Assembly: GCF_016745425.1 (NCBI RefSeq)
Contig: NZ_JAERVK010000003.1
Span: forward strand, 248,001-312,000
DNA: 64,000 nucleotides
Reading direction: 5' to 3'
DNA from: Candidatus Methylomicrobium oryzae
GTDB taxonomy: Bacteria; Pseudomonadota; Gammaproteobacteria; Methylococcales; Methylomonadaceae
Under the pieces are notes generated by a model. That model did no database searches and had not been told where the DNA came from. It worked only from the letters and a program-made list of their open reading frames with translations. Numbering within the stretch: the first letter of the stretch is position 1; each line of letters starts with the position of its first letter. Below, one piece after another: positions 32,946 to 42,425 of the stretch. Both the position numbers and the translations under genes were made by a program.

Positions 32946-33178
32946 CCCGCAACCCATTGTTTCTTTCCGAGCCTCGTCCCGCCGCGTCCGCGGAATCCGG
33001 GACGGTGCCGCCGTTTCTCTCTACGGCAATTGGGCCGGCCCATTCAAATCCGAAAGCGATAAGGCATCCGCAGCGACTGGATGCGTCCGTGATTTTGCCG
33101 CTGGTAATTCCGGTTAGACAGTATCAAAAATGCTTGTTAAGCTACAGCGCTTACACTTACACGACGGGGCGCAGGCGA

Positions 33179-34744
33179 ATGCAAGGGCAGACAACTTTAT
33201 GGCTGGGCGGTTTGACCGCGCTGTATCTGCTCTGGTTGACATTCTGGATTGTGTTGGGCGATCAGTCCTTCGGTCTGAACTTTTATAACTGGGATCAGGC
33301 TTCGGCAGCGATAGCGGCGGCGCTGGCCGCATTCCTAACTGCCCGTAAAACCGCGAGGCCTTACAGATTTTTTCTGATACTCCAGGGCCTGAGTCTGATC
33401 ATGATGAGTTTGTCCTGGATTACCTACGATCCGGAGGATACTCATCAGGCTTTCCATTTCAGCGGCGGTCTGCCATCCTATTCGAGCATCAGCTACGGTG
33501 GATTCGCCTTTTTTGGCGTGTGCGCGTGGAGTTATCTGGTGCTCGAACAATGGCGGAGCTATCCGCCGACGGCGCTGACCCAAGGCGTCTTTGCGCTGTT
33601 GTTCGCCGGCCTGTTTTTGATTCTGGCCAATTTCTACTATCCCCAATATTTGCCGTTGCTCGGCGAGGCGGCGGGCCGCCTGGATGCGGTGGTGTCGGGT
33701 TTCGAGTTCCTGATGCTGGTTTCCGGACTGATTTCGGTTCTGCTGAAACAATCGCCGTCCGTCAGTATGACGCTGGTGGCGACCGCCTTGCTGCTGGCGA
33801 GCGACCTGGCCTACAGCGATAACGATGTGCCGTACGGCATCGAGGCGGTCTGGATGTTCGGACAATTATTGATGTTGGCCGCCCTGACGCAGTTCTCCGG
33901 CCTGCCGCAGAAAACCGAGAGCGGCCAGGAGCCGGGCAAGGGTCGGTCCGGTCTTTCGGCGCTGCTGATCTTGCTGTCGCTGGGCGGGCTGCTGCTGGCG
34001 GTCGCGGTGGGGTTTTTGCCGATTCACCGGGTATGGAAGTCATTTTATGGAGTATTGTTCGTGGTTGGGCTGGTCGTAATCGAGGTCTGGCTGACCGACC
34101 GCTTCGATGAGACGGTCAAATACCTGAAATCCCATGCGAAACACCTCTTGCGAAACCGCCTGGTCGGAGTAGACTGGCGCGCGGCCGATACGCGCATCTA
34201 TACTGCGCTGCAATCGACCGGCCTCGGGGCTTATCTCGACTTTCTGGACGCCTCCGCGCGCCGGCTGAAGAAGGATGTGATTTTTTTGGGGCCGGAAAAA
34301 CTGTTTCCTGCGTCCGCAACGGATGATGCCGGTTCGAAAACAAGAGCGTGCTTCCTGGTGATGCCTTTCAGTTACGCCTGGTCGAACGACGTCCACAAGA
34401 TTCTGGCAGATGCCTGTAAAGCGCTGTCGGTGCAGGCGGTGCGCGGCGATGACGTGTTCACGCCCACCGATATCCTGGTCGATATCTGGAGGAGCCTCAA
34501 TACGGCCGATTTCGTGATCGCCGACATCACCGGCCGCAATCCGAACGTGCTCTATGAGCTCGGCATCGCGCACACGCTCGCCAAGCCTGTGCTGATCATC
34601 TCCCGGAACGCCGGCGACATTCCGATCGATTTGAGCACCCGGCGCGTGATCCTCTACGGCCAGAACGAAGAAAACTGGCATGCGGACCTGGAACTAAAAG
34701 TCACCCAGGCGATCTCCGAAATCATCCGCGTTTACGGTTTGTAA
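33179..34744 (+). CDS. polytopic membrane protein with C-terminal TIR/nucleoside-deoxyribosyltransferase-like domain
   Basis: 521 aa from ATG at 33179; a longer frame from a TTG at 32957 would add a non-conserved N-terminus before TM1 and is unlikely. About ten TM helices fill residues 5-310 (for example LWLGGLTALYLLWLTFWIVL, LSALLILLSLGGLLLAVAV). A linker leads to a soluble domain (about 391-521) that begins CFLVMPFSYAWSNDV. It contains TADFVIADITGRNPNVLYELG with Glu near 460, then IAHTLAKPVLIIS. This core is that of TIR-like NAD-cleaving and nucleoside-deoxyribosyltransferase-like domains, where the Glu is catalytic. I do not recognise the membrane part. It ends 11 bp before the SCO-peroxidase gene, so the two are probably one operon. 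Function unknown; a membrane-anchored nucleotide sensor or effector is a hypothesis. Confidence 0.75.
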   Translation: MQGQTTLWLGGLTALYLLWLTFWIVLGDQSFGLNFYNWDQASAAIAAALAAFLTARKTARPYRFFLILQGLSLIMMSLSWITYDPEDTHQAFHFSGGLPSYSSISYGGFAFFGVCAWSYLVLEQWRSYPPTALTQGVFALLFAGLFLILANFYYPQYLPLLGEAAGRLDAVVSGFEFLMLVSGLISVLLKQSPSVSMTLVATALLLASDLAYSDNDVPYGIEAVWMFGQLLMLAALTQFSGLPQKTESGQEPGKGRSGLSALLILLSLGGLLLAVAVGFLPIHRVWKSFYGVLFVVGLVVIEVWLTDRFDETVKYLKSHAKHLLRNRLVGVDWRAADTRIYTALQSTGLGAYLDFLDASARRLKKDVIFLGPEKLFPASATDDAGSKTRACFLVMPFSYAWSNDVHKILADACKALSVQAVRGDDVFTPTDILVDIWRSLNTADFVIADITGRNPNVLYELGIAHTLAKPVLIISRNAGDIPIDLSTRRVILYGQNEENWHADLELKVTQAISEIIRVYGL

Positions 34745-34755
34745 AAAGAACATCC

Positions 34756-36657
34756 ATGAAATCGTGCATTATCTCTCGGCAAACATTTCTTGCCGTCCTG
34801 CTGATCAATCTTTCAGGAATTGCCTGTCTCGGGGCGGCGGAGCCGCCGCTCGCGCCCGGTTACGGCAATCTGCAGTTCGCGTTGCCGGCACCGGGCACTT
34901 ACGCGTTGCCGCCTTTGGGGGAGGCTGCAAACGGCAAGGTGCTGGACAGCGACGGCAAGACGATCGATCTCTACGATTTGATGGGCGACAAGATCGTGCT
35001 GCTCAGTTTCGTCTATTCGACCTGCAGCGACGTGAACGGCTGTCCCTTGGCGACCGCGGTGCTGCATAAAATCAAACGGCGCCTTGCCGATGAGAAAGAT
35101 ATCGCCGCCAAATTAAGGCTGATTACGCTCAGCTTCAATCCGGAGCACGATACGCCCGACACAATGGCGATATACGGCAAGGAGTTTCAGGCGCCGGGCA
35201 TCGAATGGCATTTTCTGACGACGCGTTCCGAGGCCGACCTGCAGCCGATTCTCGAAGGCTACAAGCATACGGTGCAGAAGGTTTACGACGCGGAAGGCAA
35301 GAGCACCGGTACGTTTTCGCATGTGCTGCGGGTATATCTGATCGATACGGACAAACGCATCCGGAACATTTACAGCGTCTCGTTTCTGCATGCGGATACG
35401 CTGATCAACGACATCAAGACCTTGTTGAGCGGCCGACCCAATACCGCCGCGCCCAAGGCGGCTGCGGCCGGCAAGCCGTCTGTGTATCAGGCCGGGGATG
35501 ACAAGTCCGATTATCAGAGCGCCGAATATCAAACCCATTCGCTGGCAATGAAGGAGCGGCGGGGCAAAGCGATCGACCTTTTGGAGGCGGCTCGAAAGCC
35601 GATGCTGGGCTTGCCGCCCGTGCCGGTGCCGAAGGACAATCCTTTAACCCCGGCGAAAATCAGTCTGGGCCGCAAACTGTTTTACGACCGTCGCCTGTCG
35701 CTGAACAAGACCTTTTCCTGCGCGATGTGCCATATTCCGGAGCAGGGCTTTACCAGCAACGAAATGGCGACCGCGGTCGGCGTCGAAGGGCGGACGGTCC
35801 GCCGCAACTCCCCGACGTTATATAATGTGGCTTATCTCGATCGCCTGTTTCACGACGGTCGCGAAACGACATTGGAGCAACAGGCATGGGGGCCGCTACT
35901 CGCGCACGATGAGATGGCGAATCCGTCGATCGGTTATGTGCTGGATACGGTCGCCAACAGCGAGGATTACCGGGGACTGTTTCAAAAAGCCTTCGGCAAA
36001 GGGCCGAGCATGGAAACCCTCGGGATGGCGATCGCCAGCTACGAGCGCACCTTGAACTCGGCCGATTCGCCGTTCGACCGCTGGTTCTACGGTAAGGACA
36101 AGAAAGCGCTGAGCGACCAGGCGCAGCAGGGTTTCAAATTGTTTACCGGCAAAGCCCGGTGTTCCGGGTGCCACACGGTCGATTCGAAATTTGCGCTGTT
36201 TACCGACAACGGCTTCCACAATACCGGGATCGGTTTTGCCGCGGCGATGGACGGCTCGAACGCAAAGCGCCGCGTGCAGATTGCGCCGGGCACCTTCGTC
36301 GAAGTCGACCGCGAGGTGATCGATTCGGTATCCGGCGACAAGGGCAACGATCTCGGCCGTTATGAAGTCACCCAAAAACCCGAGGACCGCTGGAAATACC
36401 GCACGCCTTCTCTGCGCAATATCGGTTTGACTGCGCCGTACATGCATGACGGCAGCCTGGGGACGTTAGAGGCAGTCGTGCAATTTTACCGGCAAGGCGG
36501 GCGTCCCAACGAAAACCAGGATTCTTTGATCCGGCCTTTGCCGCTGAACGATCGGGAAGCGGCGGCGCTGGTCGCGTTCCTGAAGAGCCTGACCGGTTCG
36601 AACGTCGGTGAGTTGGTAGGCGATGCGTTTGCGGCACCGATCGGCGATGCGAAATGA
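34756..36657 (+). CDS. SCO1/SenC-like domain fused to a di-haem cytochrome c peroxidase (MauG/CcpA class)
   Basis: Exported fusion protein of 633 aa. The N-terminus has a signal peptide (about 1-27). Residues about 50-225 form an SCO/thioredoxin-fold domain with Cys 90 and Cys 96 (CSDVNGC, a CX5C spacing rather than the usual CX3C) and a His at 189 (FSHVLRVYLID), the pattern of an SCO copper site. A linker rich in Ala/Pro follows. Residues about 285-625 form a di-haem peroxidase with CAMCH (322-326) and CSGCH (469-473), plus LGRKLFYDRRLS, RNSPTLYN and TPSLRNIGLTAPYMHDGS. It should act in the periplasm in peroxide reduction or protein oxidation linked to copper handling. The two domains are usually separate proteins; activity is inferred. 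Confidence 0.9.
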   Translation: MKSCIISRQTFLAVLLINLSGIACLGAAEPPLAPGYGNLQFALPAPGTYALPPLGEAANGKVLDSDGKTIDLYDLMGDKIVLLSFVYSTCSDVNGCPLATAVLHKIKRRLADEKDIAAKLRLITLSFNPEHDTPDTMAIYGKEFQAPGIEWHFLTTRSEADLQPILEGYKHTVQKVYDAEGKSTGTFSHVLRVYLIDTDKRIRNIYSVSFLHADTLINDIKTLLSGRPNTAAPKAAAAGKPSVYQAGDDKSDYQSAEYQTHSLAMKERRGKAIDLLEAARKPMLGLPPVPVPKDNPLTPAKISLGRKLFYDRRLSLNKTFSCAMCHIPEQGFTSNEMATAVGVEGRTVRRNSPTLYNVAYLDRLFHDGRETTLEQQAWGPLLAHDEMANPSIGYVLDTVANSEDYRGLFQKAFGKGPSMETLGMAIASYERTLNSADSPFDRWFYGKDKKALSDQAQQGFKLFTGKARCSGCHTVDSKFALFTDNGFHNTGIGFAAAMDGSNAKRRVQIAPGTFVEVDREVIDSVSGDKGNDLGRYEVTQKPEDRWKYRTPSLRNIGLTAPYMHDGSLGTLEAVVQFYRQGGRPNENQDSLIRPLPLNDREAAALVAFLKSLTGSNVGELVGDAFAAPIGDAK

Positions 36658-40223: not shown

Positions 40224-42425
40224 ATGGCAGAAGCACAATCCGCAACCAGTTTTGCGCAAGTTCAGCAGGAAGAACTGGAAGTCATCAAAAACCAGCGGCT
40301 GAACCGGGGCGATATTCGGGAAGCCCATGAAGCCAGGCGCCTTACCGGGCTGGCGATCAGCGGCGGCGGTATCCGTTCCGCTTCGTTCGCGTTGGGTGTT
40401 TTGCAGGGTTTGAACAAATACAATATCTTGCGTCGGGTGGATTATTTATCGACCGTTTCGGGCGGCGGCTATATCGGCTCCTCGCTGACCTGGTTCAATT
40501 ACCAGAATAAAAAGAAAGGCGCGTCCTGGACTTTTCCGTTTGCTTCCGATGCGCTCCATTCGCCGCTGAATTTCCTGAGGCAGAACGGCAATTATCTGCT
40601 GCCGAGCGGCCTCTCGGCCTTGTCGCTGCTGGGCGTCCTGCTGCGTAATATCACGCTGGCGTCTTCGGTTTATCTCGCGGTGATCGTCAGCCTCTTTTAT
40701 CTTTTCGTCAACCTCCGTCTGTTCGTGCCGCAACCCTGGATGCTGCCGTTTACAAACGGCTGGCAGCCGGCCTCCTTTTTCACCCAAGCCGCGCTGGCCA
40801 TGGTGCTGGTCTTCGGGATCACCAGTTTTTTGTATGCCTGGATGACTTGGCGGAAGTTAGGGACGGAGCAGCGCGGGTATCGCGGGCGTTTCTGGTTTCA
40901 GCGCGTGCAGGGCAAGATCATTTTGCTGGCGCTTGCATTCTGGGTATTGGCGTTGCTGCCGGAAATCAACCAATTCGTCAGCGATAAACTGCGCGGAATG
41001 GAATATATGACCACTTCCTTTCCGGCGCTGCTCGGCATGATCGGATCGGTTTACGAATTTTTCCAGCAGCAAAAGGGCAATCAGGCCGGCAAAGGCGCAA
41101 TGACGGAGATTCGTATTCTGCTGACCTCGGCATTGTTGATCTTCGGCATTATGGCGGTCGGTTATAAATTCGCGCTGGATTGGGATCAATCGGACATGCA
41201 GTGGCTTTACGGATTGGTGATCGCCGGCGTCGTCCTGACCGGATGGTTTGTCAACCTGAATCTGTTCGGCATCGGACGGATGGATCGCGACCGCCTGATG
41301 GAAGCCTTTCTGCCGAATCCGCAAGCGGTGAACAATACGCGTTGGGAACTGGCGACCGAAGCCGATGTGGCTTTTTTTACCCAAGTTTCCGGACCCGATC
41401 AATGGGGGCCTTACCACATCATCAATACCAATGCCGTTCTGGTCGATTCTCCCAATGCCAAATACCGGGGCCGCGCCGGGGACAATTTCATCATGTCCCA
41501 TCTGTATTGCGGCGGCGACGCGGTCGGTTTTTATCCGATGGAAGCGCTGTCCGACGGCGAAATGACCCTCGCGACGGCAGTGTCGATTTCGGGCGCCGCG
41601 TTGAATCCGAACGCCGCCAACTCCGGACAGGGCACCACCCGCAACCGCCTGGTTTCGTTTCTGCTGACGTTTTTCAATATCCGGCTGGGCTTCTGGATAC
41701 AGAATCCGGCGGTGACCGGTTGGCGGAAAATCCTGTCGGATATGAACAGGCGCCCCAACTTTTTCTATCCGGGCTTTTTTCAGGGCTTATTGGGACAGGA
41801 CCTCAGGGAAAACGTGGGCTATCTGGAGCTGACCGACGGCGGCCATTTCGACAATACCGGGCTGTATGAATTGATCAGAAGGCGCGTCGACACCCTCTAT
41901 TTTTCTTCGGCCGGCGCGGACCCGAATTTCACTCTGGACGATATCGGCAGTTTGCTGGTGCGGATCCAGGTCGACTTCGACGTCACGGTTACTTTCAATG
42001 ACGAGCTGGAAAGCCTGATGCCGGGGTCGGACGGGGAAAGCGTGTACGCGAAGCGCTTCGGCTTTTCGAGAATGGGCTTCGACCGGGGAACGATCCATTA
42101 CCCGGCCAGCGCCACGGAGCCCGCCAAAAAGGGCACCCTGTATATCGTCAGGGCGACGCTGGCCAAGGATTTGCCGGCGGAAATCTACAGTTACCGCGCC
42201 CAGCATGAGGAGTTTCCGAATCAGTCCACGAACGACCAGTTCTTTGACGAGGTTCAGGTCGAGGCTTATCGGGAGTTGGGGCTCCGGCTGACCGCGCAGA
42301 TGTGCAGCGCGCTGTCGCTTTCCAGCGAAGAAATTACGCAGGTTTCGGAGATCTTCGCGGAAACGGCGCAAGAAGAAACCGTCGAAGGGGTACAGGAAGA
42401 CGTCGAAGGCGTGCCGGAAGTGTAA
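40224..42425 (+). CDS. patatin-like phospholipase with internal transmembrane region
   Basis: Predicted serine lipid hydrolase of 733 aa. The N-terminal part has the oxyanion loop ISGGGIRSA (45-53) and the nucleophile elbow STVSGGGY (Ser 79), where the first Gly of GxSxG is Thr. About six TM helices (roughly 135-360) are inserted next. The catalytic Asp comes only after them, in TDGGHFDNTGLYELI (Asp about 537). The C-terminus is acidic (ETVEGVQEDVEGVPEV). Membrane patatins of this layout are poorly characterised. No partner gene is obvious: it stands alone between aqpZ and the convergent PepSY gene. Substrate unknown. Confidence 0.86.
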   Translation: MAEAQSATSFAQVQQEELEVIKNQRLNRGDIREAHEARRLTGLAISGGGIRSASFALGVLQGLNKYNILRRVDYLSTVSGGGYIGSSLTWFNYQNKKKGASWTFPFASDALHSPLNFLRQNGNYLLPSGLSALSLLGVLLRNITLASSVYLAVIVSLFYLFVNLRLFVPQPWMLPFTNGWQPASFFTQAALAMVLVFGITSFLYAWMTWRKLGTEQRGYRGRFWFQRVQGKIILLALAFWVLALLPEINQFVSDKLRGMEYMTTSFPALLGMIGSVYEFFQQQKGNQAGKGAMTEIRILLTSALLIFGIMAVGYKFALDWDQSDMQWLYGLVIAGVVLTGWFVNLNLFGIGRMDRDRLMEAFLPNPQAVNNTRWELATEADVAFFTQVSGPDQWGPYHIINTNAVLVDSPNAKYRGRAGDNFIMSHLYCGGDAVGFYPMEALSDGEMTLATAVSISGAALNPNAANSGQGTTRNRLVSFLLTFFNIRLGFWIQNPAVTGWRKILSDMNRRPNFFYPGFFQGLLGQDLRENVGYLELTDGGHFDNTGLYELIRRRVDTLYFSSAGADPNFTLDDIGSLLVRIQVDFDVTVTFNDELESLMPGSDGESVYAKRFGFSRMGFDRGTIHYPASATEPAKKGTLYIVRATLAKDLPAEIYSYRAQHEEFPNQSTNDQFFDEVQVEAYRELGLRLTAQMCSALSLSSEEITQVSEIFAETAQEETVEGVQEDVEGVPEV

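Follow-up and report, generated by a model that had tools for sequence, protein, structure and literature searches.

We found that a gene of Candidatus Methylomicrobium oryzae, in which an SCO domain and a MauG-type di-haem domain are joined in one frame, probably encodes a protein that matures MtoX, the periplasmic methanethiol oxidase of the SBP56 family, a reading to which we give a probability of about 0.65. The link to MtoX comes from the domain make-up of the protein, its co-occurrence with mtoX, the gene order, the MauG-type residues, and a joint loss in one family. The genomes strongly support this link, and we infer both chemical steps from what is known of the two families. The gene lies in a window of 64,000 nucleotides (contig NZ_JAERVK010000003.1, positions 248,001 to 312,000), which is the whole stretch of DNA analysed, and its features are the following (positions of the window):

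34756..36657, + strand: SCO-MauG fusion gene, ATG start, open frame, 633 aa
34756..34845, + strand: probable Sec signal peptide, about residues 1-30 (by eye from the sequence)
34942..35358, + strand: SCO1/SenC domain, residues 63-201 (Pfam)
35023..35043, + strand: CX5C motif Cys90-SDVNG-Cys96, two residues longer than the canonical SCO CX3C (motif alignment)
35320..35322, + strand: His189, third putative copper ligand of the SCO domain (alignment)
35434..35565, + strand: low-confidence linker, residues 227-270 (pLDDT below 50 in a model that is poor overall)
35650..36099, + strand: CCP_MauG domain, residues 299-448 (Pfam)
35719..35733, + strand: haem site 1, CAMCH, residues 322-326; His326 aligns with MauG His35
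35851..35853, + strand: His366, at the position of the MauG inter-haem Trp93 (alignment)
35911..35913, + strand: Glu386, aligned with MauG Glu113
36160..36174, + strand: haem site 2, CSGCH, residues 469-473; His473 aligns with MauG His205
36487..36489, + strand: Tyr578, aligned with the MauG haem ligand Tyr294 (alignment only)

Both domains were detected by Pfam: SCO1-SenC (PF02630) with an E-value of 3.9e-16 and 59.7 bits against a cut-off of 22.8, and CCP_MauG with an E-value of 5.7e-52 and 176.7 bits against a cut-off of 25.6. The N-terminus is hydrophobic and is followed by GAAEP, which by eye gives it the look of a Sec signal peptide. Structure prediction of the fusion (10 sequences) returned a mean pLDDT of 54.6 and a pTM of 0.43, with much of the MauG half below 50; this low-quality model was used for the linker remark only, and no other claim is built on it.

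Within the window's genus and in genome G143, the fusion is placed in an argF-argD-glutaredoxin-fusion-phosphoesterase neighbourhood. Directly upstream (32957-34744, + strand, with 11 bases from its stop to the fusion ATG) is the gene of a 595-aa protein with a hydrophobic N-terminal part (by eye) and a C-terminal TIR/nucleoside-deoxyribosyltransferase-like part (PADLOC TIR effector, E-value 7e-9; Pfam Nuc_deoxyrib_tr below cut-off), possibly a defence protein. It is present in the same-genus genome, and no match was obtained at the same place in G143. Another gene of the window (40224-42425, + strand) encodes a 733-aa patatin-like phospholipase with several hydrophobic stretches, for which PADLOC gave no match.

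The search with the fusion among 201 genomes of the order gave a match in 191, and in 125 of the 201 a single frame holds both the SCO and the MauG part; the fused form is the usual state in the order. Thirteen of these 125, for which the rows used held the MauG part only or two pieces, were counted by a frame length of at least 584 aa, and a frame spanning both parts was seen directly in five of the 13 (G011, G044, G142, G175, and G178). Both listed pieces share the same frame length in G078 and G139, and the matches of the G077 and G111 fusions start only at residue 128-129. In a wider scan of relatives, the best 80 of 591 loci included 26 fused and 16 split copies and 38 MauG genes without a detected SCO, the fused copies being found also in Chromatiales, Acidiferrobacterales, Xanthomonadales, Thiogranum, and other records. 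The MauG-domain tree (71 rows, 16 near-copies left out, short search) needs five changes between the fused and split states, two of them forced by well-supported branches, and suggests that fusion or fission occurred more than once; 28 of its 68 inner branches are left open, two mtoX-linked loci in which an SCO was not found (L119 and L132) were entered as split, and its outgroup is unclean, with one of the five rows (L134) placed beside Ruegeria pomeroyi.

The association with mtoX is already in print. Eyice et al. (PMC5739008; this and the other PMC-numbered papers are cited from excerpts) described mtoX clustered with SCO1/senC and mauG, or with both domains fused as in Methylophaga thiooxydans, reported MtoX to be a copper enzyme, and suggested copper loading and the making of tryptophan tryptophylquinone as roles of the partners. 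The fusion is present in both mto clusters of M. thiooxydans (PMC6548844), where MtoX and the fusion are reported to be induced on dimethylsulfide (DMS) (PMC5739008, PMC6548844). The earlier note, made from the window alone, was right in reading one frame with an SCO and a MauG/CcpA-type domain: the Pfam domains, Cys90, Cys96, His189, CAMCH, and CSGCH are all present. Sequencing that shows two separate genes, one of the findings it said would refute it, is contradicted by the same-genus genome, which has the fusion at 91% identity, and by the 125 one-frame genomes of the order. Conversely, the same count and the papers of 2017 and 2019 (PMC5739008, PMC6548844) show that the fusion is neither rare nor new; fusion and proposed role are both published, and the claim of novelty fails. 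Of the other refuting finding named in the note, a fusion that is common and already characterised, the first half holds and the second holds as far as description goes, but the excerpts of the literature on SCO-MauG fusions contained no biochemistry of the fused protein itself. The details added here to the known fusion are the conserved CX5C, the putative Tyr ligand combined with His for Trp93, and an MtoX without partner in one family (f6). The excerpts, obtained by open-access searches worded for other subjects, mention neither the CX5C nor the His for Trp93 nor the f6 case.

The genome of the window has its own MtoX, with 782 bits against a cut-off of 650 for the NCBIfam MtoX equivalog. 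Its gene is on contig C13 (L067, 6658-8034, - strand; a 458-aa frame with a signal-peptide-like start) and the fusion on contig C32, so the window hid the link to MtoX. Fusion and mtoX are 846 kb apart in the same-genus genome. When the same 201 genomes were searched for SBP56, it was found in 150, and the listed place was used for 146. Fusion and SBP56 are both present in 123 genomes, the fusion only in 2, SBP56 only in 23, and neither in 53; the Fisher value of 1e-27 for this table comes from related genomes and is not an independent-sample probability. Indeed, neighbouring genomes are related in all tallies given here, and family f6 stands for one event.

The exceptions were inspected one by one. 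Neither fusion-only case is strong: SBP56 matches in part in G077 (E-value 4.3e-26), and the fusion of G090 starts 335 bases from a contig end. The 23 genomes with SBP56 only are 10 of family f6, seven of family f7, and G009, G109, G021, G058, G097, and G158. The f7 genomes carry a separate MauG-type gene less than 1 kb from mtoX, with an SCO match in between, a layout seen in sequence for two fetched loci (L074 and L075). A contig end lies near mtoX in G009 and G109, on the side where the partner is expected, and the SBP56 match of G021 ends at position 290 of 453 and contains a stop. The MtoX-like match of G058 (L073), a distant SBP56 homologue with 33% identity to MtoX, adjoins a CX3C SCO gene, and this genome also has a high-scoring SBP56 (630.8 bits) about 10 kb from L073. 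For G097 and G158, MtoX is above the cut-off and a partner was not found in draft assemblies of 510 and 380 contigs; both MtoX proteins retain Cys37 and Trp231, consistent with gaps in the assemblies or with a partner that MtoX can do without. Finally, the SCO and MauG matches beside mtoX in G035 hold in-frame stops (one and two, respectively), and its SBP56 match holds none.

Where the genes are together on one strand, the order mtoX, SCO, MauG is conserved, whether the last two are fused or split. Among the 123 genomes with both, fusion and mtoX are less than 1 kb apart in 66, all with mtoX upstream on the same strand; they are 1-10 kb apart in 13, farther on one contig in 15, and on different contigs in 29, which leaves 44 of 123 genomes, this one included, with the two more than 10 kb apart or on different contigs. 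Considering the best 80 of the 591 loci, mtoX was in the fetched flanks of 18/26 fused, 16/16 split, and 2/38 MauG-alone loci; the eight fused loci without it are some on short contigs and others with full flanks. Furthermore, four other genomes among 398 of the phylum (the present one included) have an MtoX of at least 60% identity, and all four have SCO and then MauG directly downstream. The R. pomeroyi genes for MtoX, SCO, and a cytochrome c peroxidase are neighbours and unfused, with a 4-base overlap between the SCO and peroxidase genes. At L118, L128, and L131 the module has another arrangement, with mtoX and SCO on one strand and the MauG gene on the opposite strand. The fusion of the window is not adjacent to mtoX, and we treated this neighbourhood as usual, not as defining, for mto-cluster proteins; its membership in the MtoX-linked SCO-MauG proteins is based on its similarity to mtoX-adjacent copies (e.g., that of G185, 67%). 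The usual clue of adjacency may be absent even though the pair is retained.

Family f6 is the case in which MtoX is found without its partner. MtoX is present in 10/10 genomes (68-74% identity), with a signal-peptide-like start, by eye, in the nine read. In the same 10 genomes, the fusion used as query matched no SCO part; its only matches were to other MauG homologues elsewhere in the genome, at most 49% identical where the match was long. We compared them with 79 other MtoX sequences, a mutually related set from which L067, two partner-less sequences, L072, and L073 were left out. Of 157 positions conserved in at least 95% of this set, f6 alters six: Cys37, Asn221, Trp231, Met236, Ser297, and Asn393. 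Position 231 is Trp in 79/79 of the others, and in f6 it is His in eight sequences, Arg in one, and Tyr in one; Cys37 is kept in 77/79 and lost in f6. Each of the eleven remaining conserved tryptophans is present in at least 9/10 f6 sequences, and the four copper histidines are present in 10/10; outside f6, the L208 MtoX has a Pro aligned at one copper histidine. If residues are counted from the histidines reported for RpMTO, the MtoX of R. pomeroyi, Trp231 and Trp394 would be the equivalents of Trp223 and Trp386, the pair proposed to form the cofactor, and Cys37 (TCQSPYM) the equivalent of Cys28, reported as essential (PMC10936201).

The joint loss of the partner, Trp231, and Cys37 in f6 ties SCO-MauG to a working MtoX. 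As one evolutionary event, f6 does not give the order of the losses, and the loss of the tryptophan may have followed the loss of MTO function. The three f6 proteins scanned (L198, L201, and L204) reach 734-754 bits and all pass the NCBI methanethiol oxidase cut-off of 650; such proteins, with neither the catalytic Cys nor the proposed cofactor Trp, would therefore be annotated as MTO.

The residues of the di-haem domain were read against Paracoccus denitrificans MauG (PDB 3l4m, sequence checked). All 82 fused, split, or mtoX-linked rows, many of them close relatives of one another, retain the MauG residues at His35, His205, and Tyr294, and 79/82 retain Glu113. The Trp93 position is His in 73/82 rows (58/61 fused, 13/19 split, and 2/2 others). 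Among 36 unlinked MauG homologues the Tyr is present and the Trp mostly retained (30/36), so the Tyr separates the fusion from an ordinary peroxidase and not from other MauG-like enzymes. Bacterial cytochrome c peroxidases are marked by an inter-haem Trp and by the lack of Tyr at the Tyr294 position; the fusion has His366 and Tyr578 at these places, and the genome's own ordinary di-haem peroxidase (L002) has the inter-haem Trp and a gap at the Tyr294 position. These marks are partly those of PMC6405878, which also reports Tyr ligation in BthA, with Ser where MauG has Trp93; the absence of the Trp does not, therefore, exclude MauG-like chemistry.

The same residues bear on the alternative that survives best, namely that the di-haem domain reduces H2O2 released by MtoX, while the SCO domain supplies MtoX with copper or holds it in the reduced state. 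Release of H2O2 by MTO is stated in several papers (including PMC6548844 and PMC10362175), real peroxidases exist among CCP_MauG domains, and most high scorers among the solved chains matching the MauG half are cytochrome c peroxidases, the best single one being a di-heme enzyme. However, bacterial MTOs have also been reported to make no H2O2 (PMC10936201), L002 provides the genome with a separate di-haem peroxidase, and the position of Tyr578 is a MauG-type Tyr in all 82 rows and not in that peroxidase. We consider a scavenging role rather unlikely.

The SCO domains of the MtoX type carry the motif C-x-[DE]-x-x-G-C-P (CX5C) in 38/38 rows (35 fused, 3 split), with one further aligned row, the G058 SCO, being CX3C, and in 42/42 domains of a second set, which overlaps the first in at least one genome (L011 and L093). 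Conversely, the spacing is CX3C in all 20 SCO loci fetched as the order's top scorers for the Pfam model, and in the three distinct solved SCO proteins compared. This fixed longer spacing would suit a domain that acts mainly as a thiol-disulfide partner of MtoX Cys37, or of a persulfide product, and not as a copper carrier; coherently, Cys37, the counterpart of a cysteine reported as essential in RpMTO, is lost in f6 along with the partner. Against it, none of the 38 rows lacks the copper-ligand His, and MtoX has been described as a copper enzyme, which makes a mainly thiol-based role quite unlikely.

Another possibility is that the SCO part loads CuA in the assembly of cytochrome c oxidase, with the fused peroxidase part sensing or removing peroxide. 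The fusion is the only PF02630 match in this genome, and COX2 genes are present; but nine members of the same family without a PF02630 match all have COX2 genes (9/9) and in none of them was an SBP56 match obtained, and canonical CX3C SCO genes are separate in other families of the order. Since the family members without PF02630 retain COX2, we rejected this role as very improbable. Least probable of all is the earlier note's idea of a stand-alone device by which a copper-dependent methanotroph would link peroxide reduction to the redox state of copper or thiols: both domain types do share one frame, and its guess of a copper link gained from the reported copper in MtoX, but the fusion tracks methanethiol oxidase, its haem-ligand residues are of the MauG type and not of the ordinary-peroxidase type, and fused or split copies accompany mtoX in R. 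pomeroyi, Chromatiales, Cycloclasticus, Methylobacillus, and other groups that are not known to us to be methanotrophic.

If the fusion is a maturation factor of MtoX, its SCO domain would pass copper to MtoX, or set its thiol state, via Cys90, Cys96, and His189, and its di-haem domain would, in the periplasm, use peroxide to oxidise MtoX tryptophan, the likeliest site being Trp231 together with Trp394. The product would be a tryptophan-derived cofactor beside the MtoX copper site, comparable to what MauG makes on methylamine dehydrogenase, and the fusion would keep the copper/thiol and the oxidation steps on one protein. The excerpts of the literature on MtoX contained no demonstration of a tryptophan-derived cofactor in this enzyme. 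Some facts speak against a maturation factor: the separate contigs, G097 and G158 without a partner, the stops in G035, and the loss of the Cys in f6. Moreover, RpMTO is reported to be active on methanethiol when produced alone in E. coli BL21 (PMC10936201), and recombinant human SELENBP1 from E. coli is reported to regain activity on addition of copper (PMC10362175); some activity is thus possible without SCO or MauG. These facts would agree with the link to MtoX if the fusion improved efficiency without being essential. More speculatively, one protein could install both the copper and the Trp231/Trp394 cofactor, with the CX5C SCO domain contacting Cys37 and a relay passing via His366 in place of Trp; f6 could then be a natural knock-out, its MtoX doing something else.

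Methanethiol oxidase takes part in the sulfur cycle, and its proposed role in methanotrophs is to remove an inhibitor of methane oxidation (PMC9003020). Methylococcus capsulatus Bath is reported to have mtoX and to degrade methanethiol (PMC5739008), and the transcript of its MauG-family gene MCA0318 was 3.2-fold lower in sMMO-producing (copper-limited) cells (PMC4831470). MCA0318 may be the SCO-MauG fusion of this strain; the tag was found in no further paper of the open-access collection searched. The fusion, its fixed CX5C, the frequent His, and family f6 make the question of a protein-derived cofactor testable.

Lastly, we compared the fusion with known systems. Canonical SCO1/SenC proteins (PDB 1on4 and 4hde) share with it the SCO domain with two Cys and a His; the fusion exceeds the PF02630 cut-off and has the distal His, whereas it has CX5C instead of CX3C and matches them weakly in sequence (best E-value about 1e-10). 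It shares with MauG (PDB 3l4m) the two CXXCH haem sites and the Glu113 and Tyr294 positions, the latter by alignment only, and differs in having His366 in place of the inter-haem Trp93 and in scoring 204.1 against the cut-off of 443.85 for the MauG TTQ equivalog TIGR03791. The best NCBIfam profile for the fusion (residues 291-616) is that of the MbnH family, TIGR04039; at 256.4 bits the fusion stays below the family's cut-off (362.85) and is not a member. We rejected modification of a copper-binding protein of the MbnH/CorB type on this score and on the link to MtoX. The R. pomeroyi pair SPO_RS21185 (SCO) and SPO_RS21190 (cytochrome c peroxidase) has the CX5C SCO and the MauG-type domain, with 48.3% identity over 85% of the fusion, but in two overlapping genes instead of one. 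The fusions of M. thiooxydans and other mto clusters, set beside ours by their description in the excerpts, have the same two domains in one gene and the same association with MtoX, with a signal peptide reported there and a probable one here; they adjoin mtoX, whereas in this genome, in its same-genus relative, and in others the gene lies away from it.
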